Shown here piece after piece: positions 5,837 through 39,943 of a stretch of DNA of 64,000 nt (position 1 is its first letter; every line of letters starts with the position of its first letter). The translations under genes were made by a program, and so were the position numbers. The notes below the pieces were generated by a model. It was not told the origin of the DNA. It saw only the letters and a list, made by a program, of their open reading frames with translations, and ran no database searches. The stretch comes from Aeromicrobium sp. Its GTDB lineage: Bacteria > Actinomycetota > Actinomycetes > Propionibacteriales > Nocardioidaceae. The stretch covers positions 1 to 64,000 of the forward strand of contig NZ_JAGLCD010000019.1 of assembly GCF_023146395.1 (NCBI RefSeq). The letters run 5' to 3'.

Positions 5837-6589
5837 GTGACGAGCGAGCCCGGGACGAGCGAGGTGTCGAGGACCCGTCGCGTCGTCGTGCTCGTGGTGG
5901 CCGCGGTCGTGGCCGTCCAGCTGTTCGGGGTCACGATCATCTCGATCCCGCCGCAGTCGGCACCGCCGGGCACCCGTACGGCAGCCGAGGTCGTGCTCCC
6001 GGCGTACTTCGAGGAGGAGTGGAAGCTCTTCGCGCCGAGCCCCGTCAACGCCGATCGCGACCTGATGGTGCAGGCGGCCTGGCGGGACGGCGGCACGGTC
6101 ACGACGGGGGAGTGGATCAACCTCACGGCGGTCGACGACTCGGTCGTGGCGCACTCGGTGGGGGCGCCGCGGTCGGCGTACCTGACGTCGCGCCTGGCGG
6201 GCGGGCTCGAGGCGGTGTGGTCGAACGCCGACCCTGAGGTCCGCACCGCTGTCGCCGAGGCGTCGTCGCCGGGCGACCCGCTCGACGAGGCCGAGGTGGC
6301 CGAGGCGCTTGGCTCCGAGGACGTCACCGGGCTGGCCCGTGACCTCATCGTGGAGCGTGACGCAGGAGCGACGACCTACCTGACGGACGTGTTCCGCTCG
6401 ATGGAGCCCGGCCGTGAGCTCGTCGCGGTGCGCTACGGCACCCGGCTCTCGACGGCGCCTCCCTGGGAGCGTCGCCACGAGGCCGAGAAGTCCGTCGGGC
6501 GGACCGTGGCGGGGCCGTGGCGGGTGCCGGCCGCCGACGACCCCGAGCGGCGGCGCAGCGTCGGTGGCTACCTGGAGCGCCACTCGTGA
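5837..6589 (+). CDS. DUF5819-like membrane-anchored protein (copy 1), partner of HTTM protein
   Basis: This 250-residue protein has a short basic N-terminus, one membrane segment (~15-37) and an extracytoplasmic domain. The motif 'EWKLFAPSPV' (61-70) resembles the W-x-LFAP-x-P motif I associate with DUF5819, a family of unknown function usually found next to HTTM proteins. The GTG start is favoured because a TACAGT box lies 6 nt upstream. Its stop overlaps the HTTM start by 4 bp (GTGA), so the two are translationally coupled. A second such pair lies at 9506-11417. The arrangement recalls SdpA-SdpB of Bacillus, where both proteins are needed to mature the SdpC toxin; that comparison is inference. 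Confidence 0.75.
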   Translation: MTSEPGTSEVSRTRRVVVLVVAAVVAVQLFGVTIISIPPQSAPPGTRTAAEVVLPAYFEEEWKLFAPSPVNADRDLMVQAAWRDGGTVTTGEWINLTAVDDSVVAHSVGAPRSAYLTSRLAGGLEAVWSNADPEVRTAVAEASSPGDPLDEAEVAEALGSEDVTGLARDLIVERDAGATTYLTDVFRSMEPGRELVAVRYGTRLSTAPPWERRHEAEKSVGRTVAGPWRVPAADDPERRRSVGGYLERHS

Positions 6590-7572
6590 GCGGCGTGGCC
6601 ACGCGATCGGGATCCGTCCTGGACCGTTTCGTCGAGACCGTGACGTCCCACCGGTGGTCGACCTACGGCCTCGCGGCCACGCGTATGACCCTGGCCGTCA
6701 CGATTCTGCTGCAGCTCGTCGTGGGATTCGCCGACCGTCAGTACATCTGGGGTGTCGGGCACCGATGGGCCGAGCCGTTCCACGAGCGCCAGGCCGTCGT
6801 GACGTGGCTGCCGTGGCTGCCGGCCGCGCCGGCGTGGGTGACCGACCTGGCCGTGCTCGCATCGGTGCTCGCGGGCCTGGCGCTGCTCGTGGGCTGGCAC
6901 ACGCGCACCGCCTGCATCGCGACCTTCGTCCTGTGGGCCGTCATGATCGACGCCTCGCCGATCCTGCGTTCGGGGGCGGAGGACGTCGTCCGGCTGGTGC
7001 TGTTCTACCTGTGTTTCAGCGACAGTGGCGCCGCGGCATCGCTCGACGCGCGCCGCCGTCGGGCCCGATCGCGGCCGGCGGGGTCCACCGAGTGGCTCAC
7101 GATCCTGCTGAACAACCTGGCCGTCGTGCTGATCGCGCATCAGATCGTCATGATCTACGTCGGCTCGGCGCTGTGGAAGTTCGACGGTCCCACCTGGCTC
7201 GACGGCACCGCGGTCTACTCCCCGCTGCAGGTCAACCAGTACTCCCCGTGGCTCGACGAGCTCGGCTGGCTCTACACGTGGTCGCCCTTCGTCCACGCGG
7301 CCACCTGGAGTGCCATGGCCATCCAGCTCGCCTTCCCCCTCCTGCTGCTCGACCGGCGCACCCGCATCCTCGGATTCGTCCTGGTGACCGGCACCCACCT
7401 CGGGATCGGGCTCCTGATGGGGCTCATGTACTTCTCGCTGGCGATGATCGCGGCGGACGCCGTGCTGATCAGTGACGCCAGCTGGCGACGAGCTGCTGAT
7501 GCCGTCCGCAGGTGGGGAAGGCGCCTCCGGTCGACCCCCGAGGACACAGGTGCCGGGAGAACCGGGCCGTGA
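6586..7572 (+). CDS. HTTM-domain (vitamin K-dependent carboxylase-like/SdpB-like) membrane protein, copy 1
   Basis: This 328-residue integral membrane protein has about six to eight hydrophobic segments. The N-terminal pattern 'YGLAATRMTLAVTILLQL' and the later 'YVGSALWKFDGPTW' and 'GTHLGIGLLMGLMYFSLAM' are typical of the HTTM (horizontally transferred transmembrane) domain. That domain is shared by vitamin-K gamma-carboxylases and SdpB. The His in the GTHLGIG segment is a position often conserved. The GTG start overlaps the stop of the DUF5819-like gene. Whether it carboxylates a substrate or is a non-enzymatic membrane partner cannot be told. The nearest secreted candidate substrate is the LPSTG protein encoded next. 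Confidence 0.8.
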   Translation: MSGVATRSGSVLDRFVETVTSHRWSTYGLAATRMTLAVTILLQLVVGFADRQYIWGVGHRWAEPFHERQAVVTWLPWLPAAPAWVTDLAVLASVLAGLALLVGWHTRTACIATFVLWAVMIDASPILRSGAEDVVRLVLFYLCFSDSGAAASLDARRRRARSRPAGSTEWLTILLNNLAVVLIAHQIVMIYVGSALWKFDGPTWLDGTAVYSPLQVNQYSPWLDELGWLYTWSPFVHAATWSAMAIQLAFPLLLLDRRTRILGFVLVTGTHLGIGLLMGLMYFSLAMIAADAVLISDASWRRAADAVRRWGRRLRSTPEDTGAGRTGP

Positions 7573-7653
7573 GCATGTGAGCCACGCCACGCCGCCGGGT
7601 TTCGGGCGAATGGTCAGACTTGCTGAGAATGTGGTTAAACTGTCGCTCGGACT

Positions 7654-7675
7654 GACGAGCTCCACGGGGCTCGTC
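7654..7675 (+). promoter_or_regulatory. Short hairpin in the 5' region of the LPSTG protein gene
   Basis: GACGAGC (7654-7660) pairs with GCTCGTC (7669-7675) across an 8-nt loop, about 70 nt before the ATG at 7747. It follows a relatively A/T-rich segment (GTTAAACT, 7634-7641) that may hold the promoter. It could be a 5' UTR stabiliser or a weak terminator of the preceding HTTM gene. Confidence 0.35.
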
Positions 7676-7746
7676 CTGCCTTCCGCCCGGGCGGGGAACA
7701 CACCTGCGCCCCACCCGAACGCTTGGACTACGAGGAGCACTCCCGC

Positions 7747-9399
7747 ATGAAGCACATCGGCAAGAAGGTGATCGGAGCCGGCGTCGCGACGCTGCTCGTC
7801 ACCTCCGTGGCCAGCCTGAACGCAGGCGCCGCCACCGTCACTGACTACAAGTCCTACGCCGAGGCGCAGTACGTCGTCGGTACCGGTGCTCTGGGGAGCC
7901 CGCTGGTCGATCCGCTGGTCGACGTGCTCGCCGAGAACGAGCAGCAGGCCGGCGACGGCGCCACGGGAGTCATCTCGCGCGTCGACACCGCAGCCGGCAC
8001 GGCCGAGACCGCTCCGGGCCCCTACTACGCCGAGGGCGCGCTCAACGCGCTCGAGGCCCTGACCGGACCGCTGGGTGACCTGCTCGGCTCGCTGGGCGTG
8101 GGTGTCATCGGCAGCTACGCCAAGGCCGACAAGAACGTCTCGCTCGCGGCCTCGGGCCTGATCACCAACGAGGGCGCCATCAACGTCGACTCCGCCGCTC
8201 CGGGCGGCCCGTCGAACGCCACGCTCGACCTCACCGGTCCCGGGCAGCCGCTCGAGGCACTCAACCCGGTCGCCAACATCGTGCTCGACCTCGGCGCCGC
8301 CGCCTCGTCGGCCACGCTGACCGGCGCGGGCCTGACCAAGCCGGACGCCGCCGACCAGGCCGTCCTGGACTACGGCATCACCGGTGGCGGGCTCGACATC
8401 GAGCTCGTCGCGCTCCAGACGCTTGATCCGCTGGGCATCGTCGGCACGCTGGACGGCCTCTCGATCGGTGTCCCCGGCGTCGCCACGGTCGAGGTCATCG
8501 GCATCGACTCCGTCACGAACGCCATCGCCAACACCACGCAGAACGGTGTCTCGATCAACCTGACCGGTCCCGACGCCGGTCTCATCTCGGTCGACGTTCC
8601 CACCCTCCTGGCCTCGGCCGGCATCGACATCAACAACCTGCCGCGCGACACCGAGCTCCTGCCGCTGGTCGTCACCGAGCTGACCGAGCAGGTCGATGAC
8701 TTCGTGGCCGCCCTGGTCCAGAACCTCACCGACGCCGTTGCGGATCTCTCGGTCGAGGTCACGGCCCTGGGTGGCATCGTGCCTCCGATCGTGATCCCGC
8801 TGGGTGATCTGGCCGCGAATCTGCTCGCCCCGGTCAACGATGCGGTTCAGGCCGTCATCGCGCAGGTGCTCGACCCGGTTCTCGCTCAGCTCGGCTCGGC
8901 CCTCGCCGACGTGCTCGAGCAGCTCACGGGTGTCGTCAACGTCCGCGTCAACCTGCAGCATGTCGGCACCAACGCCGACGCTGACCCGGACAACTACGTC
9001 GCGCTCGTCTCGAGCGACCGCACGGGCACCGAGGGCGTCTTTGCCATCACGGCCCTGCGCGTCGAGGTCCTGGGCGCTGCCGGCAACGGTGGTCTGTTGA
9101 GCCTCAACCTGGCCAACTCGCTCGTCGGTCCTAACTCGGTCAACACGTTCGACGACAACGCGAACGTCAACGCCAACGCCCCGGCCAACGCGAACGCTCC
9201 GGCGAACGCGAACGCTCCGGCCAATGCGAACGCCAACCTGAACGGCAACGGGGGCCTGGCCGACAAGTCGGTCGACACCCTGCCGAGCACCGGTGCGTCG
9301 AACCTGTGGCCCTTCTGGCTGCTGGGTCTGCTCCTGGTGGCCCTGGGTGCGGCCGCGATGATCAACGAGAAGCGCCGCGAGTCGGCTCTGCTCGCCTGA
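7747..9399 (+). CDS. Choice-of-anchor G-type surface protein with LPSTG sorting signal
   Basis: This 550-residue secreted protein has a Sec signal peptide (1-~29, ending AGA-A). A large domain rich in 'DLGA', 'ITGGGLD' and 'LTGPDAG' strings resembles the choice-of-anchor G family. A low-complexity Asn-Ala-Pro-Ala linker sits near 470-500. The C-terminus is a complete sortase signal: LPSTG, a hydrophobic stretch 'WPFWLLGLLLVALGAAAMI' and a basic tail. It should be covalently attached to peptidoglycan; no sortase gene is in the window. GAGGAG (7732-7737) stands 9 nt before the ATG, favouring this start over the ATG at 7723. It lies between two DUF5819/HTTM pairs and ends at a strong terminator. 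Confidence 0.85.
   Translation: MKHIGKKVIGAGVATLLVTSVASLNAGAATVTDYKSYAEAQYVVGTGALGSPLVDPLVDVLAENEQQAGDGATGVISRVDTAAGTAETAPGPYYAEGALNALEALTGPLGDLLGSLGVGVIGSYAKADKNVSLAASGLITNEGAINVDSAAPGGPSNATLDLTGPGQPLEALNPVANIVLDLGAAASSATLTGAGLTKPDAADQAVLDYGITGGGLDIELVALQTLDPLGIVGTLDGLSIGVPGVATVEVIGIDSVTNAIANTTQNGVSINLTGPDAGLISVDVPTLLASAGIDINNLPRDTELLPLVVTELTEQVDDFVAALVQNLTDAVADLSVEVTALGGIVPPIVIPLGDLAANLLAPVNDAVQAVIAQVLDPVLAQLGSALADVLEQLTGVVNVRVNLQHVGTNADADPDNYVALVSSDRTGTEGVFAITALRVEVLGAAGNGGLLSLNLANSLVGPNSVNTFDDNANVNANAPANANAPANANAPANANANLNGNGGLADKSVDTLPSTGASNLWPFWLLGLLLVALGAAAMINEKRRESALLA
9169..9234 (+). repeat. 18-bp coding tandem repeat (Asn-Ala-Pro-Ala linker)
   Basis: About three and a half copies of an 18-nt unit encode repeated N-A-P-A-N-A in the wall-spanning linker of the LPSTG protein. 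Copies differ mainly at synonymous positions. Such linkers often vary in length between strains. Confidence 0.7.
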
Positions 9400-9429
9400 T
9401 CGAGAGCACTGACGTCACGCAGTGACGAA

Positions 9430-9463
9430 CCGATGCCGGTGACCTTCGGGTCACCGGCATCGG
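9430..9463 (+). terminator. Factor-independent-type terminator after the LPSTG protein gene
   Basis: A perfect 15-bp stem (9430-9444 with 9449-9463) is capped by the very stable UUCG tetraloop. It lies 30 nt after the stop and has no U-tract, as is common for actinobacterial terminators. It separates the LPSTG gene from the second DUF5819/HTTM pair, which has its own promoter. Confidence 0.85.
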
Positions 9464-9492
9464 TCATGTCCGGCTCCCGACTCATCTCGACC

Positions 9493-9498
9493 TAGGAT
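9493..9498 (+). promoter_or_regulatory. -10 box of a leaderless promoter (TAGGAT)
   Basis: TAGGAT ends 7 nt before the ATG at 9506, with no separate ribosome site. The alternative ATG at 9497 lies inside the box, so 9506 is the better start. Confidence 0.55.
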
Positions 9499-9505
9499 GG
9501 AGCTC

Positions 9506-10255
9506 ATGTCCGCCCCTGCTTCCGAGGTTCGCGCGACCCGGTGGCAGAGCGGGATCATGCTCACGGTCGCGGCGGTCGTCATCGTGCACTCGGCGGTCGT
9601 CGGGCTGTGGCTCAGTCCGTCCAGCCCCATCCGCGAGACGGTCGGTGACAACACGCTGGCCTCCTACGTCAACCCGTACTTCCGCCAGTCGCCCACCACG
9701 GTCGACCCCGGGGTCCAGCGGGCCGACGAGGCGCTGCTGGTCAGGTCCAGGGTCCTGACCGCGGACGGTGAGACCGTGGAGACCCCGTGGACCGACGTCA
9801 CGGCCGACCTGGAGGACGGGAGCCTGCTGCGGCCTCGCATCGACCGCGCGGCCCGGTCGCTCGCGACGAACCTCAACGTCGCGATCACCTCGTTCCCCGA
9901 GGACGCCCGCCCGCTGGTCGAGGAGGATCTCCTCGAGGAGGACCGCGCCGTGCGCCAGGTCGAGATCGAGGCCGAGGGCGCCACGCCGTTCCAGGCCCAG
10001 GTCTTCTTCGCGAACTGGGCGATGGCCACCCAGTTCGGCACCCTGTACAGCACAGCCCGGGCCGATGGCACGGTCGAGCAGGTCCAGATCCGGGTCGGCC
10101 TGCGCCGCGTTCCCGCGTACGACGACCGCAACGACGGCACGGTGCGCGACGAGCCGTTCTCGTTCGTGACACTGGGGTGGCGCGACGCGATCGCCGGCAA
10201 CGAAGAGGCCCAGCGGGCCTTCGACGACTACGTAGGGGGTGATGACGGTGCGTGA
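9506..10255 (+). CDS. DUF5819-like membrane-anchored protein (copy 2), partner of HTTM protein
   Basis: This 249-residue protein has the same architecture as the product of 5837-6589: a short N-terminus, one membrane segment (~15-36) and an exported domain. Its 'VNPYFRQSPTTVD' (56-68) stands where copy 1 has 'EWKLFAPSPV', so the two copies are clearly diverged. The region 'FFANWAMATQFGTLYS' and the later 'RVGLRRVPAYDDR' fit a soluble extracytoplasmic domain. Its reading frame overlaps the following HTTM gene. The function is unknown. Context says it acts with the HTTM protein, and the pair is probably an independent transcription unit because a terminator precedes it. Confidence 0.7.
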   Translation: MSAPASEVRATRWQSGIMLTVAAVVIVHSAVVGLWLSPSSPIRETVGDNTLASYVNPYFRQSPTTVDPGVQRADEALLVRSRVLTADGETVETPWTDVTADLEDGSLLRPRIDRAARSLATNLNVAITSFPEDARPLVEEDLLEEDRAVRQVEIEAEGATPFQAQVFFANWAMATQFGTLYSTARADGTVEQVQIRVGLRRVPAYDDRNDGTVRDEPFSFVTLGWRDAIAGNEEAQRAFDDYVGGDDGA

Positions 10256-11417
10256 CACGTGGTGGGTCGTCGTCGACACCGTGATCGGAGCCCGCGAGTC
10301 CGCCGAGCGCTGGCTCTTTGGCGGGCGGCACGCGTTGGTGGCGCTGGGTCTGTGCCGCATCCTGCTCGGCCTCAGCGTCGTGCTGACCCTCGTGGTCAAC
10401 TTCTCCGACCGCACGCTGTGGGTCGGCAATGCCTCGGTGTGGGCCGAGCCGGCCCGGGACGCGGTCGACTTCCCGGAGCTGTGGCTCGTGCGCAATGCCA
10501 CCGACACCGTGGTCACGCTCGTGTACGTCGTGACGACGCTGGCCGCCCTGGCCTTCACGGCTGGCTGGTACACCCGGGCGGCCAACGTCGTGACGTTGAT
10601 CGGGTTCATCGCCGTCGTGGGTCAGAACCCGATGGTCGGCAGCGCGAGCGACAACGCGGTCCGGCTGGCGCTGCTGTGGCTCGTGCTCACGAGCTCCGGT
10701 GACCGCTGCTCGGTCGACGCCCGCCAGCGCGCGCGCCGCGACGCGGACGCCGAGGCCGAGCAGCGCGGATTCGACTCCGACGAGGTCCTCCCGCCGTGGC
10801 TCGGCATCAGCCTGCACAACATCGGCCTGCTCGGTCTGGCGGTGCAGACCGTGCTGCTGTACGTGACCGCCGGGCTCGACAAGATCGCGCGTGAGGCGTG
10901 GCGCTCGGGGGAGGCGCTCTACTACACGACCCAGCTGCCGGAGTTCCGGCCGTTCGGGGTCCTGTCGGACCTGGTGTCGGCCAGCCCGGTCGTCCTGGCC
11001 CTCCTGACCTACCTCGTGCTGCTGACGCAGCTCTTCTTCGCCCCGTTGATGCTGACGCGGCCGTCGCGCATCGCCGCGGTCACGGTGGCCATCGTGGCGA
11101 ACGTGTTCTTCGCCGTGGTGTTCGGGGCCGTCCCGGCGGCGCTGGCGATCATCGCGGTCACGTTGGTGGTGTTTCCCGACGACCTGCTGGAGGAGCGGGT
11201 CGACTGGCTCGCCGAGGTCACCGAGCGACCCCGACAGCAGGTCGAGGACCTCTGGTTCCGCGTCTCGGACCCGTTCGTGGAGGCAGCCGATGCCGTGCGC
11301 CTGCGTCGGCAGGACCGCCTGGAGCAGAAGGTCGCGCGCACCGCGGCCCGGCACGGCGCCGGCCGCTCGGACCGGGCCACCGAACCGCCCTCGCGCGACA
11401 CGGCCGAGACCGACTGA
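10248..11417 (+). CDS. HTTM-domain (vitamin K-dependent carboxylase-like/SdpB-like) membrane protein, copy 2
   Basis: This 389-residue polytopic membrane protein is related to the HTTM protein at 6586. It shares 'LCRILLGLSVVLTLVV' near the start, a 'YVTAGLDKIAREAWRSGEAL' segment matching 'YVGSALWKFDGPTW', and the final hydrophobic hairpin. It carries a ~60-residue hydrophilic, Arg-rich cytoplasmic tail that copy 1 lacks. I chose the GTG at 10248 because AGGGGG (10234-10239) is 8 nt upstream; GTG 10239 and ATG 10242 are in-frame alternatives. It overlaps the DUF5819-like gene by 8 bp. It converges with the MFS gene with only one base between their ends. Confidence 0.78.
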   Translation: MRDTWWVVVDTVIGARESAERWLFGGRHALVALGLCRILLGLSVVLTLVVNFSDRTLWVGNASVWAEPARDAVDFPELWLVRNATDTVVTLVYVVTTLAALAFTAGWYTRAANVVTLIGFIAVVGQNPMVGSASDNAVRLALLWLVLTSSGDRCSVDARQRARRDADAEAEQRGFDSDEVLPPWLGISLHNIGLLGLAVQTVLLYVTAGLDKIAREAWRSGEALYYTTQLPEFRPFGVLSDLVSASPVVLALLTYLVLLTQLFFAPLMLTRPSRIAAVTVAIVANVFFAVVFGAVPAALAIIAVTLVVFPDDLLEERVDWLAEVTERPRQQVEDLWFRVSDPFVEAADAVRLRRQDRLEQKVARTAARHGAGRSDRATEPPSRDTAETD

Positions 11418-11418
11418 G

Positions 11419-12621
11419 TCAGTCGCGGACCACGTCGGCCGCGGCGCGGCTCCCGGAGACGACCAGGCCGATCACCGGAATCGTCAGCACCGCCGCTGCG
11501 GCGTTCAGCGTGCCGAAGTCACGCCAGGCCATGACCAGGCCCGCCAGGAGGCCACCGGTGGCCCCGGCCACGTTCATCGCGAGGTCCGCGATGCCCTGGA
11601 CCGCCGGCCGGACCTCGCCGCTGACGGCCGTGGTGAGCATCGCGGCCGCCGCGATGACCGACATCGACCAGCCGAGGCCGAGAAGCACCAGACCGATCAT
11701 GATCTGCGCCTCGGAGTGGCCGGCCGTGCCGGACACGAGTGTCGAGAGCACGAGCACCGCCTGACCCGCGAGGACCACCACAGCGGGGCCGATGCGGTCG
11801 CTCAGCCAGCCGAACACGGGCGACAGGGCGAACATGCCGGCGATATGGAGGCTGATCGTCAGTCCGATGACCTCCAGGTCGGCTCCGTGGTCCTCCAGGT
11901 GCACGGGCGTCAGGGACATGACCGAGACCATGACGGCGTGCGACGCGGCGATCGTGACGACGGCCGTCAGGGCGCGACCTCGCAGGTGCGGCCACGGCGA
12001 GACCCGAGCTCGCCGCGGCGCATCGACCGCCCGCGCGAGCGGGTCCGGCCGGACGAGGAGAAAGGTCAGGAGGCCGGCCACTGTGAAGGCGACGACCGAG
12101 AACACGAGCGGCCCGGCGAGCTCGGGCACGCCGAGCACCTCGGCGAGCCGGGCTCCGGGTCTGGTGAGGTTCGGCCCGGCCACCGCACCGATCGTGGTGG
12201 CCCACACGACGACCGAGAGCGAGCGGGCGACCCTGCGGGGCTCGGCCTGGTCGGTCGCGGCGAAGCGGGACTGGAGGTTGGACGCGGTGCTCGCACCGAA
12301 CAGCACCAGCCCGAGGAGCACGATCGGCAGCGATCCGCGGTCCGCGCCCACGATCGACACGAGTGCGCCCGCCGCCCCGATCAACCACCCGGTCGTGAGG
12401 GCGGGGCGCCGCCCCGAGCGCATGGCCCAGCGAGCGAGCGGGACCGTGGCCAGTGCGGCACCGATCGTGAGCATCGCGGTGGCGGTGCCGGCCCAGCCCG
12501 AGGACCCGCTGACGTCCTTGACCAGGAGCGCGCCGATGGCCAGCCCGGCGCCGTTGCCGACACCACCCACCACCTGGATCGCCGCGAGGGACCCGACGAG
12601 GCGTCCCTGCGGATAGGTCAC
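11419..12621 (-). CDS. MFS transporter
   Basis: This 400-residue protein has about 12 membrane segments of the major facilitator superfamily. The loop 'ARWAMRSGRRPALTTGWLIG' after helix 2 is the MFS motif A region, and a matching 'FGWLSDRIGPAVVVLAGQ' follows in the second half. The GTG start at 12621 overlaps the stop of the M13 peptidase gene by 4 bp (GTGA). The open frame continues far upstream, but only as an antisense shadow of the peptidase. Coupling to a peptidase might suggest peptide or drug export, but the substrate is not indicated. Confidence 0.88.
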   Translation of the reverse strand: MTYPQGRLVGSLAAIQVVGGVGNGAGLAIGALLVKDVSGSSGWAGTATAMLTIGAALATVPLARWAMRSGRRPALTTGWLIGAAGALVSIVGADRGSLPIVLLGLVLFGASTASNLQSRFAATDQAEPRRVARSLSVVVWATTIGAVAGPNLTRPGARLAEVLGVPELAGPLVFSVVAFTVAGLLTFLLVRPDPLARAVDAPRRARVSPWPHLRGRALTAVVTIAASHAVMVSVMSLTPVHLEDHGADLEVIGLTISLHIAGMFALSPVFGWLSDRIGPAVVVLAGQAVLVLSTLVSGTAGHSEAQIMIGLVLLGLGWSMSVIAAAAMLTTAVSGEVRPAVQGIADLAMNVAGATGGLLAGLVMAWRDFGTLNAAAAVLTIPVIGLVVSGSRAAADVVRD

Positions 12622-14588
12622 GAGGACCAGACCGTCACCCGGTCGATGGGGTCGAGCCAGAGCGCGTCGCCGACGGCCACGTCGAACGCCGCGTAGAACG
12701 CCTCGATGTTGCGCACGACCTGGTTGCAGCGGAACTCCGGCGGTGAGTGGGGATCGACCGTGAGGCGCCGCACCGTCTCGGCGGGCCGCACCTTCGACTG
12801 CCAGGCCTGGGCCCACGAGATGAAGAAGCGCTGGTCGGGCGTGAGGCCGTCGATCGGCTCGTCGCCCGGATCGGTCAGCCGGAACGCGCGGTACGCGATG
12901 CTGAGCCCACCGAGGTCGCCGATGTTCTCGCCGATCGTGAGCGCTCCGTTGACCTTCTGTCCGTCCGCGCCCTCGGGCGAGAGCTCGTCGTACTGGGCGA
13001 CGAGAGCGGCCGTGAGCTTCTCGAACGCGGCCCGGTCGTCGTCGGTCCACCAGTTGCGCAGGGCGCCGGTGCCGTCGTACTGCGAGCCCTGGTCGTCGAA
13101 CCCGTGGCCGATCTCGTGGCCGATCACCGCACCGATGGCCCCGTAGTTGACGGCGTCGTCGGCGTCTGCGTGGAAGAACGGTGGCTGCAGGATCGCCGCG
13201 GGGAAGACGATCTCGTTCATCGTGGGGTTGTAGTACGCATTGACCGTCTGCGGCGTCATGTACCACTCGTCGCGGTCGATCGGCGCGCCGATCTTCGCCA
13301 GCTCGCGCGCGGTCTCGACGGCCATCGAGCGGCGCGCGTTGCCGAGCAGGTCGGTGGGTTCGGTCTCGAGGGCCGAGTAGTCCTTGAACTGTTCGGGGTG
13401 ACCGATCTTGGGCGTGAAGGCCGCGAGCTTCTCGTGCGCCCGGGCCTTGGTCGCGTCGCTCATCCACGGCAGCTCGGTGATCGACAACCGGTACGCCTCG
13501 ATCAGGTGCGCGATCAGCTCGTCCATCCGGGCCCGCGCCGTGTCGGGGTACTCGGTGCGCACGTAGAGGCGGCCGACCGCCTCGCCCATGGCGCCCTCGA
13601 CGAAGGAGACGCCGCGCTTCCAGCGGGGGCGCAGCTCGTCGGTGCCCGACAGGGTGCGGCCGTAGAACGCGAAATTCTCCTCGACCAGCTCGCTCGACAG
13701 GTAGGCCGCCGCCGCGTGGACGACGTTCCAGCGCAGCCAGTCGCGCCACGCGGGCAGGAGGTCGGGGGTCAAGAGCGTCTCGAGGCCCTCGAGGAACGAG
13801 GGCTGAGCCATGACGACCTCGGCCAGGACCTGCTCCGGGATCTGACCGGCCGCCGACCAGGTCGCCAGGTCGAATGACGGCACGAGGGCCTGGAGCTGGT
13901 CGAAGGGCAGCAGGTTGTAGGTCTTCTGCGCATCCCGGCACGCGACGCGGTCCCAGTGGTGGGCAGCGAGGCGCGTCTCGAGGTCGAGCACCCGCTCGGC
14001 GCGTGCGGTGGCGGCGTCCGGCCCGGCCCCGTCCAGGCCGGCGAGCGTCAGCATGCGGGCGACGTGGGCGACGTAGGCGGTGCGGATCTCGGCGAAGTCG
14101 TCCTCGCGGTAGTAGGACTCGTCGGGCAGCCCGGTACCGCCCTGGAACCCGTGGGTCACGTAGCGGTCGGGCTGGCCGCGGTCAGGACCGATGTAGATGC
14201 CGATCAGGCCGTGCGTGCCCGTGCGCTCCAGGTCGCCCAGGAGGCGGGCGAAACCGGTGTAGTCGTCGACCTCGTCGATGCGGGCGAGATCGGGCTGCAA
14301 CGGCGTGACGCCGAGGGCCTCGATCCGGTCGGTGTCCATGAACGACGCGAACAGGTCGCCGATCTTGCGCTCGTCGGAGCCGGCCGGGGCGTCGGCGGCC
14401 GCCGCGGTCTCGATGATCTGACGGACCTTGGCCTCGGCCTCGTCGACGAGGGTCACGAACGAGCCGGCGGTCGCGCGGTCGGGCGCGATGGGCGCTTCGC
14501 GCAGCCAGCGTCCGTTGACGTGGCGGAAGAGGTCGTCCTGGACGCGGATCTCGTGGTCCAGCTGCGTGATGTCGATGCCCTGAGTCAC
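12618..14588 (-). CDS. M13 family zinc metallopeptidase (neprilysin/PepO-like)
   Basis: This 656-residue protein has the length and motifs of M13 endopeptidases. The zinc motif HEIGH begins at residue ~491 within 'VIGHEIGHGFDDQG', and the third ligand Glu (~554) is in 'TIGENIGDLGGL'. The preceding 'VNAYYNPTMNEIVFPAAIL' is the conserved substrate-binding stretch. There is no signal peptide or membrane anchor, so it is probably a cytoplasmic oligopeptidase, as for bacterial PepO. The C-terminus ends 'DRVTVWSS' instead of the usual CxxW-type end. It is the first gene of a two-gene unit with the MFS transporter and is divergent from the gene at 14606. Confidence 0.93.
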   Translation of the reverse strand: MTQGIDITQLDHEIRVQDDLFRHVNGRWLREAPIAPDRATAGSFVTLVDEAEAKVRQIIETAAAADAPAGSDERKIGDLFASFMDTDRIEALGVTPLQPDLARIDEVDDYTGFARLLGDLERTGTHGLIGIYIGPDRGQPDRYVTHGFQGGTGLPDESYYREDDFAEIRTAYVAHVARMLTLAGLDGAGPDAATARAERVLDLETRLAAHHWDRVACRDAQKTYNLLPFDQLQALVPSFDLATWSAAGQIPEQVLAEVVMAQPSFLEGLETLLTPDLLPAWRDWLRWNVVHAAAAYLSSELVEENFAFYGRTLSGTDELRPRWKRGVSFVEGAMGEAVGRLYVRTEYPDTARARMDELIAHLIEAYRLSITELPWMSDATKARAHEKLAAFTPKIGHPEQFKDYSALETEPTDLLGNARRSMAVETARELAKIGAPIDRDEWYMTPQTVNAYYNPTMNEIVFPAAILQPPFFHADADDAVNYGAIGAVIGHEIGHGFDDQGSQYDGTGALRNWWTDDDRAAFEKLTAALVAQYDELSPEGADGQKVNGALTIGENIGDLGGLSIAYRAFRLTDPGDEPIDGLTPDQRFFISWAQAWQSKVRPAETVRRLTVDPHSPPEFRCNQVVRNIEAFYAAFDVAVGDALWLDPIDRVTVWSS

Positions 14589-14593
14589 CTCGT

Positions 14594-14599
14594 TAGGCT
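14594..14599 (+). promoter_or_regulatory. -10 box of a leaderless promoter (TAGGCT)
   Basis: TAGGCT lies 6 nt before the GTG at 14606, inside the 17-bp gap between divergent genes. No ribosome site is present. Confidence 0.6.
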
Positions 14600-14605
14600 A
14601 CAGGC

Positions 14606-15454
14606 GTGGCGAGCACCTACCTGACCCGTCTGACGGTCCTGCGGGTCGAGGACGTCGGCCCCGCGATGCGACGCGTCGTGCTGGGCGGACCCGAGCTGGC
14701 CGACGTGGTCGCCCGGTGGTCGGGGCACACCGATGCCTACGTCAAGATCGCCTTCCTCGCCCCTGGGGTCGACTACCCCGAGCGGCTCGATCTCGAGCAG
14801 GTCCGCGCGTCGATGCCGCCGGAGCACTGGCCCGTGCTGCGCACTTACACGATCCGCCGGCTCGACCCCGCCGCCGGCGAGATGTGGATCGACGTCGTCG
14901 TGCACGGCGACGCCGGCCTGGCCGGCCCGTGGGCGGCCCGCGCCCAGGCGGGCGAGACCGTGCACCTGCGCGGTCCCGGCGGTGCCTACCGGCCCGACCC
15001 GGCCGCTGACCACCAGCTGCTCGTGGGCGACGAGTCGGCGCTGCCGGCCGTCCTGGCGAGCCTGGAGGCCCTCGAGCCGGGCCAGCGCGCCACCGCCTTC
15101 CTCGAGGTCGACGGACCGGCCGACGAGCAGCCCGTCGTCACCGCCGGCGACGCCGAGGTGTTCTGGTTGCACCGGTCTCCGGCCGATGCCGGCACCACCA
15201 GTCTCCTGGACGACGCCGTTCGAGCCTGGTCCTGGCCCGCGGGCCGGGTCCAGGTCTTCGTGCACGGTGAGTCCGGGCTCCTCAAGACCGTGCGCCCGTA
15301 CCTCGTGAAGGACCGCGGCGTCGAGCGGCGCGACGTGTCGATCTCGGCCTACTGGCGTCGTGGTGAGTCCGAGGAGGGCTTCCGAGCCTGGAAGGCCTCC
15401 GAGCGCGCCCGCGGCGAGGAGCCGATGATCCGGCCCGAGTCCGCGCCGTCATGA
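14606..15454 (+). CDS. Siderophore-interacting FAD-binding protein (ferric-siderophore reductase type)
   Basis: This 282-residue flavoprotein matches the SIP family, which reduces ferric siderophores in the cytoplasm to release iron. The FAD-binding motif appears as 'LRTYTIRRLD' near residue 78. A Gly/Pro-rich loop follows ('HLRGPGGAYR', ~115). The NAD(P)H-side motif is 'LLVGDESALPAV' near 138, and 'VFVHGESGLLKTVRPYL' near 220 is the usual C-terminal landmark. The GTG start is supported by the TAGGCT box 6 nt upstream. Its stop overlaps the ispD-like start (ATGA), so the two genes are co-transcribed. No siderophore transporter is adjacent; an efe iron operon lies 46 kb away. Confidence 0.88.
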   Translation: MASTYLTRLTVLRVEDVGPAMRRVVLGGPELADVVARWSGHTDAYVKIAFLAPGVDYPERLDLEQVRASMPPEHWPVLRTYTIRRLDPAAGEMWIDVVVHGDAGLAGPWAARAQAGETVHLRGPGGAYRPDPAADHQLLVGDESALPAVLASLEALEPGQRATAFLEVDGPADEQPVVTAGDAEVFWLHRSPADAGTTSLLDDAVRAWSWPAGRVQVFVHGESGLLKTVRPYLVKDRGVERRDVSISAYWRRGESEEGFRAWKASERARGEEPMIRPESAPS

Positions 15455-16140
15455 CGGTCCACGCTCTGGTGCTGGCGGGGGGCACCGGCACCCGGTTCGG
15501 CGCGGCGACCCCGAAGCAGCTGCTCGACCTCGACGGCAGGAGCGTCCTCGCACACGCCGTCAGTCGTCTCGCGGGGCACCCCGACGTCGACTGGATCGTC
15601 CTGGTGACCCACGCCGAGTCGGCGCGGGAGGCGCACCGGGTGGCGGTGGCCGAGCCGAAGGTCGTCACGGTCGTGTCCGGAGGTGCCACCCGCGCCGACA
15701 GCACGCGGCTCGGACTGGCCGCGATCCCGGAGCTCGCCGACGACGATCTCGTGCTCGTGCACGACGCGGCCCGCCCGTTGGTGACGGGCGAGATCGTCGA
15801 CGCGTGCCTGGCCGCGCTGGCCGACCACGACGCCGTGACCCCGGCGGTCGAGTCGGTCGACACGCTCGTCGAGGTCGACAGTGCCGGTCTGGTCGTGCGG
15901 AACGTCGACCGCTCGGTGGTTCGCCGCGTGCAGACCCCCCAGGGATTCCGGGCGGGGGTGCTGCGGCGCGCGCACGCCGCAGCCGCACTCGAACCCGGGG
16001 AGCCCACCGACGACTGTGGGGTCGTCCTGGCGCACGTCCCCGGTGCGCGGGTCACCGTGGTCCCCGGCGACGAGCGCAACCTCAAGATCACGCGGCCGGC
16101 CGATCTCGACCTCGCGCGACGCTGGCTCCACGAGGGCTAG
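15451..16140 (+). CDS. ispD: 2-C-methyl-D-erythritol 4-phosphate cytidylyltransferase-like protein
   Basis: This 229-residue protein has the IspD/TarI nucleotidyltransferase fold. The glycine-rich CTP-binding motif is 'LAGGTGTRFG' (8-17), followed by PKQLL. 'GGATRADSTRLGL' (~78) and 'VHDAARPLV' (~104) are the second and third signature blocks. IspD makes 4-CDP-2-C-methyl-D-erythritol in the non-mevalonate isoprenoid pathway. A ribitol-5-phosphate cytidylyltransferase (TarI) is the main alternative, since the fold is shared, no ispF is adjacent and a glycosyltransferase gene converges from the other strand. It overlaps the flavoprotein gene by 4 bp. Confidence 0.8.
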   Translation: MTVHALVLAGGTGTRFGAATPKQLLDLDGRSVLAHAVSRLAGHPDVDWIVLVTHAESAREAHRVAVAEPKVVTVVSGGATRADSTRLGLAAIPELADDDLVLVHDAARPLVTGEIVDACLAALADHDAVTPAVESVDTLVEVDSAGLVVRNVDRSVVRRVQTPQGFRAGVLRRAHAAAALEPGEPTDDCGVVLAHVPGARVTVVPGDERNLKITRPADLDLARRWLHEG

Positions 16141-16152
16141 AGGCATCCGTCC

Positions 16153-17124
16153 TCAGCGGGGCAGGGCCGGAGGCACCTCGGCCGGATCCATGGGGCGCCA
16201 CGTGTCGTCGCCCCACAGGCGCCGGTTCTCGCGGAATCCGCGGACCAGGTCGCCCAGCCCGCGCAGCGTGCGCTGCACGACGATGAGCCGGAAGATCTCC
16301 TTGGCGAAGGTCAGTGCCGTGCCGAGACCGAAGCCGAAGCGATGGAGCTTGCCGTGCAGGGCGAAGTACTTGCCGACGTAGGCACGGTTGCGCATGACGT
16401 GGAACCGGAACAGCGGGCTCCCGTCGTTGAGGTGGCGCAGGCCCAGGTTGACCTGGCGCTGCTCGCGCTTGCGTCGCAGGACGTACGCGTCGACGTAGAC
16501 CACCTGCGTGTGCTGGGCGGCCAGCCAGGCGTACGCGGCGTCGTCCCACGTGATGAAGAAGCGCGGGTCCGGCAGGCCGATCGTGCGCACGACGTCGGCG
16601 TGGACCAGCATCCCCTCGAACGTGCCCGAGTTGGTGATCGCGTAGCCCTCGTCGTTGAAGGTGCGCGAGACCCCGTAGGGCAGCGGCACGCCGAGGAACT
16701 CGTTGAATTTCGCCTGCCAGTAGAACGGTGACCCGTCGAAGTCGTACCGGCGGCCGTGGATGACGCGAAACCGCTCCATCCACGGGGCGAAGCGGTCGAG
16801 CGCCTCGGGCAGGATCTCGACGTCGTCGTCCATCAGCCAGACCCAGTCGGCGCCGAGCTCGAGGGCGAGCCGCGTGCCCTCGCAGAAGCCGCCCGCGCCA
16901 CCGGTGTTGGTGGGGAGGCGCCGGGTCACCAGCACGCCGGGCTCGAACCAGGCGGCGGCCTCCGACAGGACCTCGCTCGTCGCCTCGTCGCTGGCGTTGT
17001 CGATCACCACGACGCGCCACGGGGGGCTCGTCAGCCGGGTCGCGCTCCGGAGCAGCTCGGCGAGAAACTCCGGGCGGTTGTACGTGACGACGGCGATCGC
17101 GACACGGGGGGACTGGTCGGGCAC
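16153..17124 (-). CDS. Family 2 glycosyltransferase, GlfT/rhamnosyltransferase-like
   Basis: This 323-residue GT-A fold enzyme opens with 'VAIAVVTYNRPEFLAELL', the usual GT2 N-terminus. The sugar-nucleotide/metal motif DDD is at 99-101 in 'WLMDDDVEIL', preceded by 'TNTGGAGGF'. 'ITWDDAAYAWL' near residue 190 corresponds to the acceptor/catalytic region of actinobacterial galactofuranosyl and rhamnosyl transferases. It likely adds a sugar to a cell-wall glycan or glycolipid on the cytoplasmic face. The GTG at 17124 is chosen because TAGGGT lies 7 nt upstream; a GTG at 17133 is possible. Donor and acceptor are not predictable. Confidence 0.83.
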   Translation of the reverse strand: MPDQSPRVAIAVVTYNRPEFLAELLRSATRLTSPPWRVVVIDNASDEATSEVLSEAAAWFEPGVLVTRRLPTNTGGAGGFCEGTRLALELGADWVWLMDDDVEILPEALDRFAPWMERFRVIHGRRYDFDGSPFYWQAKFNEFLGVPLPYGVSRTFNDEGYAITNSGTFEGMLVHADVVRTIGLPDPRFFITWDDAAYAWLAAQHTQVVYVDAYVLRRKREQRQVNLGLRHLNDGSPLFRFHVMRNRAYVGKYFALHGKLHRFGFGLGTALTFAKEIFRLIVVQRTLRGLGDLVRGFRENRRLWGDDTWRPMDPAEVPPALPR

Positions 17125-17131
17125 GCCCGCC

Positions 17132-17137
17132 ACCCTA
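17132..17137 (-). promoter_or_regulatory. -10 box of a leaderless promoter (TAGGGT) for the GT2 gene
   Basis: Read on the minus strand, TAGGGT precedes GTG 17124 by 7 nt. It lies in the 94-bp divergent region shared with ktrB. Confidence 0.55.
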
Positions 17138-17206
17138 ACGACTCGTGGCTGCGGGAGGATGCCGCAGCGCCGTGGCCGAAGTTCCGCCGCGACCCCGAGC
17201 GCGGTG

Positions 17207-17212
17207 TAGCGT
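17207..17212 (+). promoter_or_regulatory. -10 box of a leaderless promoter (TAGCGT) for ktrB
   Basis: TAGCGT ends 6 nt before the GTG at 17219 and there is no ribosome site, so translation probably begins at the 5' end of the mRNA. Confidence 0.55.
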
Positions 17213-17218
17213 CGCGGT

Positions 17219-18565
17219 GTGCCCCGACCGAGGATCCCGGCCGCCATCGCTCATCCGGTGCGACTCCTGCCGCTGACGTTCCTCACGCTGATCCTGGCCG
17301 GCACCCTCATGCTGATGCTCCCGTTCGCCCGCACGGGGGAGTACTCGCCGGAGTTCATGCCGGCCTTCTTCACGTCGACGTCGGCCGTCACGGTCACGGG
17401 TCTGGCCACGGTCGACACCGCGAGCTACTGGTCGCCGGCGGGTCAGGTGATCATCCTGATCCTCGTCGAGATCGGCGGCCTCGGCATCGTCGCCCTCGCC
17501 ACGGTGCTGGGGCTGTTCATCGGAGGTCGCCTGGGGCTGCGCACGCGCCTCGTGGCCCAGACCGACATGCACGTCGTCAGCCTGGGGGAGGTCAGGCCGC
17601 TGTTCCGTCGCGTCGCGGTCGTGATGCTGAGCTTCCAGCTCGTCATCGCGGTCGTGCTGTCCGTGCGGTACCGCGGGTCCTACTTCGACTCGTGGGGCAC
17701 CTCGCTGTGGCACGGGGTCTTCGACGCGGTCATGGCGTTCAACAACGCCGGGTTCTCGCTCAACTCCGACAGCATCACCCGCTACGCCGGCGACTGGCTG
17801 ATCATCGTGCCGATCTGCCTCGGGGTGTTCTTCGGCGCCGTGGGCTTCCCGGTGCTCGCCGAGCTGTTCAGCGGCTGGCGCAACCCCAGCAAGTGGACGA
17901 TCCACACCCGCTTGACGGTGTGGGGCTCGGTCTTCCTGCTGGTCGTCGGGGCCGTGGTGTTCCTGGCCCTGGAGTGGTCCAATCCCGCGACCCTCGGCAC
18001 GCTGCCGTGGGACCACCGCCTCGTGTCCGGCCTGGAAGGTGGCGTCATGCCCCGGTCCGGCGGGCTCAACAGCTTCGACTGGGGCTCGGTGCGCCCGGAG
18101 ACCCTGAGCTTCGGCACCGTCCTGATGTTCATCGGCGGTGGCAGCGCGAGCACCGCCGGCGGCATCAAGGTCACGACCTTCCTGCTGCTGGCCTACGTCG
18201 TCCTCGCCGAGCTGCGGGGCGACCCGCAGGTCACGATCGGCGCCCGGGCCATCAGCTCGGCGGTCGTGCGCACGGCCCTCACGATCGCGTTGATCTCGGT
18301 CATGCTCGTGACCGGGTCGACGTGGCTCCTGATGCTCTTGTCCGACGCGACCTTCGAGAACGCCCTGTTCGAGGTGACCTCGGCCTTCGCGACGGCCGGA
18401 CTCAGCACGGGACTCACGCCCGACCTCAACAACGCCTCGCAGGTCCTGATCATCGTCTTGATGTTCATCGGCCGAGTCGGCACCATTACGGCTGCCTCGG
18501 CCTTCGTGCTGCGTCGTCGGGCACCGCGGTACACCGTGCCCGAGGAACAACCCATCATCGGATAG
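17219..18565 (+). CDS. ktrB: Potassium uptake channel subunit, TrkH/KtrB family
   Basis: This 448-residue membrane protein is the ion-translocating subunit of a Ktr/Trk potassium system. Four pore-loop repeats are visible, each with the selectivity-filter glycine: 'AVTVTGLATVD', 'NNAGFSLNSD', 'MPRSGGLNSFD' and 'ATAGLSTGLT'. The third repeat is followed by 'GGGSASTAGGIKVTTF', the flexible gating region of this family. Length matches KtrB better than TrkH. The gene for the regulatory NAD/ATP-binding subunit follows after 8 bp, so the pair forms a complete transporter. Expression seems to come from the leaderless promoter just upstream. Confidence 0.93.
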   Translation: MPRPRIPAAIAHPVRLLPLTFLTLILAGTLMLMLPFARTGEYSPEFMPAFFTSTSAVTVTGLATVDTASYWSPAGQVIILILVEIGGLGIVALATVLGLFIGGRLGLRTRLVAQTDMHVVSLGEVRPLFRRVAVVMLSFQLVIAVVLSVRYRGSYFDSWGTSLWHGVFDAVMAFNNAGFSLNSDSITRYAGDWLIIVPICLGVFFGAVGFPVLAELFSGWRNPSKWTIHTRLTVWGSVFLLVVGAVVFLALEWSNPATLGTLPWDHRLVSGLEGGVMPRSGGLNSFDWGSVRPETLSFGTVLMFIGGGSASTAGGIKVTTFLLLAYVVLAELRGDPQVTIGARAISSAVVRTALTIALISVMLVTGSTWLLMLLSDATFENALFEVTSAFATAGLSTGLTPDLNNASQVLIIVLMFIGRVGTITAASAFVLRRRAPRYTVPEEQPIIG

Positions 18566-38519: not shown

Positions 38520-39770
38520 TCAGGCCATCTGGCGACGCGCGGTGCGGGCGCCCAGGAGGACGACACCGCCCAGCAGCGTCACGAGCACGCCTCCGATCAA
38601 CATCGTGGCCGAGGCCTCGAGGCCGGTCGACGGGAGCACCGCCGCCTGGGTGGGAGCTGCGGCTCGAGGCGCCACGGCGGGGACGACCGGAGCCGCCGGA
38701 GCCGCCGGGGCGACCGGGCCGACCGGAGGGACCGGGGCCGCCGCGACCGTCACGACGACCTCGGTGGAGTCGCCCGAGATGACACAGCTCGTGGCATCGC
38801 CGGGGATCGAGCACAAGGCGAGGTAGTACCAGAGGCTGCCCGATGCCGCCGCCGTGAAGGTGAGCTCACCGGTTGCGCTGTTGAACGACACGTTGGTGAA
38901 GTTCGCCGGGTCGGTCAGCGCGGTGTCGACGAAGTACTGGCGCAGCGAGCCGGGGGTTCCCAGACCCTCGGCGTCCTCCTCGTCGTCGAGCTGCTCGTCG
39001 TTCGCGGCGACGTTCAGCGTGATCGGGACGCCGGAGACGCCCGAGGCCAGATCGGTCACGGTGCAGGCGATGTCCAGGCCGTCGCCACCGAACAGCTGGT
39101 TGGTGCCGCCCTCGCCGCAGAGCTGGTCGTTGCCGCCGTTGCCGTACAGGATGTCGTCGCCGTCACCGCCGAAGATGACGTCGTCGCCGCCGATGTTGAC
39201 GACGGGACCGTCGCCGTAGATCGTGTCGGCTCCGTTGCCGCCGAAGATGACGTCGTTGCCGCCGATGTTGACGACGGCGCCGTCGCCGTAGATCGTGTCG
39301 GCTCCGTTGCCACCGGAGATGACGTCGTTGCCGCCGATGTCGACGACGAAGCCGTCGCCGTACACCGTGTCGGCGCCGCCGCCGCCGTCGATCGTGTCGT
39401 CGCCGCCCGCGACGGTGGCCTCGCCGTCACCGTAGATCGTGTCCGGTCCGCCGCCGCCGTTGATCGTGTCGTCACCACCGTTGTTGGTGGCGGCGCCGTC
39501 GCCGCGAATCGTGTCGGCCCCGCCGCCGCCGTTGATCGTGTCGTCGCCGCCGTTGTTGGTGACGATGGCGCCGTCGCCGGAGAGGGTGTCGTCCCCGGCG
39601 CGGCCGTTGATCGTGTCGTCGTTGCCGGTGCCGAGCTCGATGTTGCCGTCGCCGCTCAGGACGTCCGGCCCGGGAGTCCCGTCGATGTCGGCCGCCAGGG
39701 CGGACGTCGGGACCAGGGCGATCGTCGCGACTGCTGCGGCGACCCCCAGACGGAGTGTTGTTCTCTTCAT
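38520..39770 (-). CDS. Cell-wall-anchored protein with RTX-like calcium-binding repeats (LPSTG)
   Basis: This 416-residue exported protein has a Sec signal peptide (1-26, ending ALA). Residues ~27-215 are Gly/Asp-rich RTX-like repeats ('GGDDTINGGGGADTI' type) that should fold as a calcium-loaded beta-roll. A non-repetitive domain (~220-330) follows, then a Pro/Ala-rich linker. The C-terminal sortase signal is LPSTG, a hydrophobic segment and 'RTARRQMA'. RTX repeats usually occur in type I-secreted proteins; here they are on a Sec/sortase substrate. Two Cys pairs lie in the post-repeat domain. It is the second LPSTG protein of the window. Confidence 0.88.
   Translation of the reverse strand: MKRTTLRLGVAAAVATIALVPTSALAADIDGTPGPDVLSGDGNIELGTGNDDTINGRAGDDTLSGDGAIVTNNGGDDTINGGGGADTIRGDGAATNNGGDDTINGGGGPDTIYGDGEATVAGGDDTIDGGGGADTVYGDGFVVDIGGNDVISGGNGADTIYGDGAVVNIGGNDVIFGGNGADTIYGDGPVVNIGGDDVIFGGDGDDILYGNGGNDQLCGEGGTNQLFGGDGLDIACTVTDLASGVSGVPITLNVAANDEQLDDEEDAEGLGTPGSLRQYFVDTALTDPANFTNVSFNSATGELTFTAAASGSLWYYLALCSIPGDATSCVISGDSTEVVVTVAAAPVPPVGPVAPAAPAAPVVPAVAPRAAAPTQAAVLPSTGLEASATMLIGGVLVTLLGGVVLLGARTARRQMA
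39192..39551 (-). repeat. Five tandem 72-bp coding repeats (24-residue RTX-like units)
   Basis: Residues 74-193 of the LPSTG/RTX-like protein are five units of exactly 24 residues, each starting GG(D/N)D and containing GADT(I/V)-x-GDG. The two neighbouring units covering 39192-39335 are almost identical at DNA level, which suggests recent duplication. Confidence 0.85.
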
Positions 39771-39943
39771 GATGTGACCTCGTGAGGGAGGAGGATCCAG
39801 CCGTGATCGGCCGGAGGGAGTGCTCGTATATCAACACGGCGACGGCCGGCGTGTGAGCCAAATCATCACGTTGCTGGCTGCAGGGTCGACGGCATGCCCC
39901 AATCGCCGGCGCACCTGGTTCCGATGGGGGACGTCCGCATGGT

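Follow-up and report, generated by a model that had tools for sequence, protein, structure and literature searches.

The locus described here raises the question of why two gene pairs, each consisting of a DUF5819 gene and an HTTM gene, should flank a gene for a sortase-anchored surface protein. The locus lies in Aeromicrobium sp. (assembly GCF_023146395.1, contig NZ_JAGLCD010000019.1, positions 1 to 64,000; this stretch of 64,000 nucleotides is called the window). We propose that a DUF5819-HTTM pair acts as a membrane enzyme of two subunits, which modifies the surface protein encoded with it via abstraction of a C-H proton, an account to which we give even chances. Modification of the surface protein in some form is about one half likely, and any single named reaction is much less so. 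In some actinobacteria, wall-protein genes adjoin a membrane pair related to human vitamin-K carboxylase and to enzymes of peptide-antibiotic clusters, which hints at chemical remodelling of entire surface proteins.

The five genes lie in a row on the plus strand in the order DUFa, HTTMa, surface protein, DUFb and HTTMb. Their positions, the overlaps within the pairs and the placement of the LPSTG protein between them had been given in the original prediction, and were confirmed by profile scores and by the sequence. DUFa (5837..6589; PF19136, 67.3 bits) is a DUF5819 protein with a hydrophobic N-terminal stretch, a predicted outside domain and the motif WKLFAPSP. HTTMa (6586..7572; PF05090, 43.7 bits) is a polytopic HTTM protein whose GTG start at 6586 falls within the DUFa stop, and at 7177-7179 it encodes a Lys matching K218 of human gamma-glutamyl carboxylase (GGCX, also VKGC). 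The choice-of-anchor G surface protein (7747..9399; NF033766, 55.6 bits) has a signal peptide (called by eye), a stalk with Ala at alternate positions (9160..9237; NANAPANAN..., with a longest strict run of 11 Ala) and a C-terminal sorting signal, in which the LPSTG motif (9280..9294) is followed by a hydrophobic stretch and a basic tail. DUFb (9506..10255; PF19136, 88.0 bits), the second DUF5819 protein, has lost the W-x-x-F-A-P motif. HTTMb (10239..11417; PF05090, 53.0 bits), the second HTTM protein, keeps the Lys matching GGCX K218 at 10881-10883 and has lost the Phe of F-S-L-A-M. Its start is 10239 or 10242, ahead of the DUFb stop (10253-10255), so that stop and start overlap in both pairs. 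AlphaFold2 models of DUFb and HTTMb had mean pLDDT (predicted local distance difference test) values of 90.3 and 90.8, respectively. Both DUF5819 genes, both HTTM genes and the choice-of-anchor G gene score above their curated cut-offs (27.1, 27.7 and 45 bits). Gram_pos_anchor gave 16.0 bits on the surface protein, below its cut-off of 20, and the wall-anchor call therefore rests on the motif, the hydrophobic stretch and the basic tail. The genome carries three sortase-family genes, and the window surface protein has the features of a sortase substrate.

The neighbourhood is conserved in other genomes. Stop-to-stop frames of at least 80 residues in 1.47 Mb of pair-containing loci were scored for a C-terminal sorting signal, related species entering all counts separately. 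A signal was found in 79 of 9038 frames, and 64 of the 79 adjoin a pair. Because the loci were picked around pairs, other genes from the same loci serve as the fair control, and this background test covers upstream genes only. A sorting-signal gene lies upstream of 41 of 69 Aeromicrobium pairs versus 1 of 311 background genes, and upstream of 28 of 37 pairs versus 0 of 62 background genes in family f11, which we take for Microbacteriaceae (pooled, 69/106 versus 1/373). A looser sorting motif, broadened after LPxAG and LAxSG misses had been seen, places a sorting-signal gene next to 66 of 69 Aeromicrobium pairs, and the strict motif does so for 54 of 69. Two of the misses (L048 and L066) are at contig ends, L066 beside a cut surface-protein homologue, and L064 is a true miss. 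The corresponding counts in f11 are 29/37 (loose) and 27/37 (strict), rising to 33/37 after inspection, with a downstream choice-of-anchor G gene in L166, L171 and L180 and a secreted repeat protein (by eye) in L159; these four surface genes are cut before their ends, and the sorting signal is not seen there. The f11 pairs L154, L160, L170 and L183 remain without a surface-type neighbour. Single or substitute pairs in Aeromicrobium (L039, L051, L054-L056, L060, L063 and L068) have upstream sorting-signal proteins outside the profile of the window protein. Two families follow the neighbourhood rule strongly, and a third lineage, the Streptomyces-like pairs (genus g36, which we take for Streptomyces), does not show it. 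At L073, three pairs and two sorting-signal proteins stand in a row.

The two genes of a pair are inherited jointly. In the fetched loci, an HTTM gene lies within about 1 kb of 131/131 DUF5819-type genes, downstream in 126 and upstream in five, the latter being linaridin-like loci. Over 119 pairs, the distances separating the DUF5819 proteins correlate with those separating their HTTM partners (r 0.935), and 0 of 2000 permutations reached as high a value. Each of the two families was found in 36 of 49 genus genomes; DUF5819 was found in one of 69 other genomes (118 searched), in 20 of 396 genomes phylum-wide (17 over the cut-off) and in 35 of 249 f11 genomes (34 over the cut-off), covering 22 of 85 genera. 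Both trees place all 25 second-position (b) pairs in a single clade of 28 members (support 0.98 and 1.0), which contains the same three extra members in each, labelled single (one-pair loci) and all near contig ends. The first-position (a) pairs form no clade of their own. The canonical motifs are W-x-x-F-A-P in DUF5819 and F-S-L-A-M in HTTM, and the Aeromicrobium b pairs have lost the Phe of the former in 25/25 (W kept in 10/25) and the Phe of the latter in 25/25, the catalytic-type Lys being retained in 24/25. W and F of the DUF5819 motif are kept in 26/26 DUFa-type genes. Both motif Phe residues are kept in 26/26 a pairs and 37/37 f11 pairs; the DUF5819 and HTTM residues are kept in 14/14 and 13/14 Streptomyces-like pairs, respectively, and in 14/17 each of the single Aeromicrobium pairs. 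The joint loss, a new finding for the second Aeromicrobium pair, hints at contact or cooperation between the two motifs. The original prediction held that the two copies are diverged and may serve different substrates. The divergence is borne out by the 25/25 motif losses, and the two pairs are not equivalent copies. The joint loss speaks for pair b as a derived partner, which may serve as a scaffold or have altered chemistry, and less for a duplicate dedicated to a different substrate.

The HTTM protein matches the membrane core of GGCX by sequence and fold, and matches SdpB with an hhalign E-value of 1.4e-25 (sequence common to both alignments removed), in agreement with the earlier claim of a relation to SdpB and vitamin-K carboxylase. 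A Lys aligned to GGCX K218 is present in 45/46 sequences of the HTTM alignment A1 and in 118/119 pairs, and W223 and F299 of the GGCX quinone pocket align to conserved residues of canonical HTTM members. A D-x-G-D(N)-type loop takes the place of GGCX N159 and H160 (the Glu site), with H160 aligned to G/S before D138 (residue numbers counted by hand). The luminal C-terminal, propeptide-binding part of GGCX is without counterpart in the 392-aa HTTM protein, which has a separate partner in DUF5819. The cassette resembles SdpA/SdpB in pairing a single-pass protein with an HTTM protein, one that carries K, W-x-x-G and a DGG loop, and in having a secreted neighbour. It differs in that the window neighbour is sortase-anchored, the SdpA match is weak, and no SdpC or SdpI was recognised. 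The SdpB model TIGR04033 scores 51.7 and 33.3 bits on the window HTTMs against a cut-off of 178.4, which leaves them outside the SdpB family, and neither SdpA (PF17418) nor an SdpABC system was found in the genome, which is 83% complete.

By sequence comparison, DUF5819 is related to LinL, yet forms a separate branch. Its alignment with five LinL-like sequences gave 93.5% and E 2e-7 over 84 columns in hhalign, and W-x-x-F-A-P-x-P is common to both groups. The Pfam DUF5819 model gives LinL-like proteins 16.3 to 28.8 bits, on either side of its cut-off. The match to SdpA is weak and confined to the motif, scoring 25.7 where the best of 200 column shuffles reached 19.0; the LinL kinship is the closer one. 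Five weak DUF5819 matches are LinL-like proteins beside an HTTM gene with a hydrolase, in the linaridin-like loci L071 (Aeromicrobium G015), L119, L187, L188 and L189. At L189 the adjoining linaridin-type precursor ends C-L-I-C, and the HTTM gene looks split. Four sequences retain DG-x-D, K and W-x-x-G in their LinH-like N-terminus, and one of the four has a weak Pfam HTTM match (16.4 bits). Plasmid loci with such a gene have methyltransferase and transporter genes in three of four cases, the Tsukamurella locus having neither, and P-x-x-x-T-P occurs in four of five short genes translated from them. Although these loci are not annotated so, we read them as linaridin clusters. A passage of one report gives P-x-x-x-T-P as the linaridin cleavage motif and names HTTM, hydrolase and LinL genes as suspected in linaridin dehydration (PMC9927463). 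The LinL and HTTM proteins of linaridin clusters are suspected in print of dehydrating or epimerising peptides, grmL being taken for a LinL by its letter. The cypemycin, grisemycin and corynaridin clusters resemble the window cassette in having an HTTM-type membrane protein plus LinL. In those clusters the HTTM part comes linked to an alpha/beta hydrolase and short precursor peptides adjoin, whereas the cassette has a wall protein as neighbour (about 440 to >2000 residues in relatives) and no hydrolase. The cassette falls outside SdpABC, GGCX and the linaridin clusters alike.

The surface proteins beside the pairs are varied. Of the 68 collected, 55 were scanned; 29 match choice-of-anchor G and 26 do not, and adhesin models of the SdrC or Clf type find 15 to 19 of the 55. 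The window protein and its relatives share 29-89% identity among partial matches. LPDAG or LPAAG is the sorting motif in the paired proteins of L037, L041, L042, L043, L045 and L077, and classical sortases should not cut these sequences. Ahead of the sorting signal, Ala in paired proteins often alternates residue by residue with Asp, Asn, Gln, Thr, Ser or Pro. Asp-rich stalks are common; those of the window and L044 are Asn/Ala and Gln/Ala stalks with little Asp. Alternating-Ala runs of at least seven occur in 29/68 paired proteins (at least five, 42/68), versus 0/6 unpaired sorting-signal proteins (longest run, 3) and 0/440 background frames (at least five, 6/440). Among 7706 frames, 70 have a run of at least seven. 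On one strand or the other, 62 of these overlap surface genes on the list of paired ones; six lie in or antisense to unlisted pair-adjoining surface genes, and two are elsewhere. Ala pairs number 909 at lag 2 versus 443 at lag 1 and 459 at lag 3, with 595 expected, and alternation exceeds that of a protein's own shuffled tails at p<0.01 in 30/68. The occurrence of such stalks in about half of the paired surface proteins, and their near absence elsewhere in the DNA analysed, is new here. One specific form of the proposal, which we consider unlikely, is that the pair is a protein epimerase which converts the alternating Ala residues of (X-Ala)n stalks from the L to the D form. If true, the wall would carry a D,L-alternating stalk that is protease-proof and may coil as gramicidin-like helices, and ribosomal D-amino-acid chemistry would extend to full-size sortase-anchored proteins through a vitamin-K-carboxylase-like membrane enzyme. 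Slippage of six-base repeats could also produce the runs, which antisense frames show too. For this reason, and with only six unpaired controls, the D,L-stalk idea is a bold reading and not a result.

In the proposed mechanism, the surface protein would cross the membrane and the pair would then act on it. HTTM would be the catalytic subunit, with a membrane-buried and probably quinone-binding pocket, in which the conserved Lys would help to deprotonate a C-H carbon in the chain and so create a carbanion on the exported surface protein. DUF5819, probably on the outer face, would hold or present the substrate chain. A single shared step is proposed because GGCX removes a Glu carbon proton, while dehydration and epimerisation remove a C-alpha proton. 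Residues would probably be epimerised from L to D or dehydrated, reactions of which the linaridin relatives are also suspected, after which sortase would fix the modified protein to the wall.

Several observations weigh against this proposal. The original prediction proposed co-occurrence of pairs with LPxTG genes in other genomes as a check, and what held in Aeromicrobium and f11 failed for the Streptomyces-like pairs, with a sorting-signal neighbour at 0/15 (background 0/82). Of five further distant pairs (four on deep branches and one in a different genus of the family to which Aeromicrobium belongs), two have such a neighbour, and that of L118 may be a spurious frame. Since the Streptomyces-like and distant pairs are mostly without sorting-signal neighbours, the pair must have other roles too. 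DUF5819 is lacking from 13/49 genus genomes and has no fold match in the PDB. Choice-of-anchor G proteins also occur unpaired, with two in G022, two in G036 and one each, clearly so, in G008 and G031, and alternation is not significant at 0.05 in 35/68 paired proteins. On the HTTM side, the Phe matching GGCX F299 is lost in 25/25 b-type proteins, and H160, a named part of the GGCX quinone pocket, is absent. The alpha/beta hydrolase of linaridin-like enzymes is lacking in the cassette. A passage of another report credits cypemycin dehydration to kinases and lyases (PMC10880069), which slightly lowers our confidence.

The pair may instead act in an SdpA/SdpB-like manner and help to cleave or release part of the surface protein, in processing or export, without residue chemistry. 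The homology of HTTM to SdpB, the weak DUF5819-SdpA match at one motif and the similar operon shape in plasmid records listing both genes are consistent with this. However, no protease domain was recognised in the library scans, HTTM keeps the carboxylase-type Lys, DUF5819 is nearer to LinL, and the sorting signal kept in paired proteins suggests that they stay on the wall; we regard this explanation as possible but doubtful. A bacterial gamma- or beta-carboxylase, by which Glu or Asp side chains in acidic stalks would gain CO2 in a Gla-like manner for metal binding, would account for the GGCX fold, K218 and the many Asp-rich stalks. It appears quite improbable given the replacement of N159/H160, the little Asp in the window and L044 stalks, and the missing counterpart of the luminal C-terminal part of GGCX.

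Precedent exists in SdpABC and YitPOM, as treated in a passage of PMC6818787, for a contact toxin with the pairs as maturation and immunity proteins, and the surface protein does diverge fast. The genome contains no SdpA-family gene at its 83% completeness, no toxin domain was recognised among the families listed, where adhesin models match instead, and the pairs are retained while differing surface proteins adjoin them, all of which makes a toxin very unlikely. A thiol-disulfide or quinone redox module making disulfides in the surface protein is a still fainter prospect: a DUF393-annotated protein adjoins SdpA in one plasmid and 34 of 56 uncut paired proteins have at least two Cys after residue 60, but 14 of the 56 have none, and no Cys stands in an invariant or nearly invariant column of alignment A1 or A2. 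Passive synteny, by which the genes would be neighbours only through a conserved region, is hardly credible. Most Aeromicrobium cassettes do sit at one site beside M13, SIP (siderophore-interacting) and IspD genes, but the only shared neighbours recognised among those listed for f11 are the three gene families themselves, sorting-signal genes likewise adjoin single pairs located elsewhere in Aeromicrobium genomes, and the counts against background genes speak against it. The earlier interpretation, of a surface-protein maturation or peptide-export system, is as a whole partly supported.

The enzymatic reading joins three poorly understood membrane pairs, LinL with its HTTM partner, SdpA/SdpB and DUF5819-HTTM, through one HTTM core that human vitamin-K carboxylase also has. 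It further suggests that the natural substrates include bacterial surface proteins. A large, wall-fixed and purifiable substrate would make the action of HTTM on peptides testable by mass spectrometry and chiral analysis. The name DUF5819 was not found in the open-licence papers searched.

Among the Streptomyces-like loci, L103-L111 have a core pair followed, in 7/9 loci and among the genes listed, by a TrmH-type RNA methyltransferase look-alike (by eye), and are without a sorting-signal gene. L113 has a second Streptomyces-like pair, upstream of which lies a secreted-looking protein with DHGQD-type repeats and without a sorting signal.

The window also encodes a second LPSTG protein (38520-39830, minus strand, 436 aa), which has neither an adjoining HTTM pair nor an alternating stalk. 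The neighbours recognised were DppB, SBP, MFS, M13, SIP and IspD, with no linaridin precursor, hydrolase or methyltransferase among them, small open reading frames of the window not having been searched for precursors. To the right of the cassette (11420-17247), an M13 peptidase gene stands beside most five-gene Aeromicrobium cassettes on contigs reaching that far, and is mostly followed by SIP and IspD genes; the left neighbour varies by clade.

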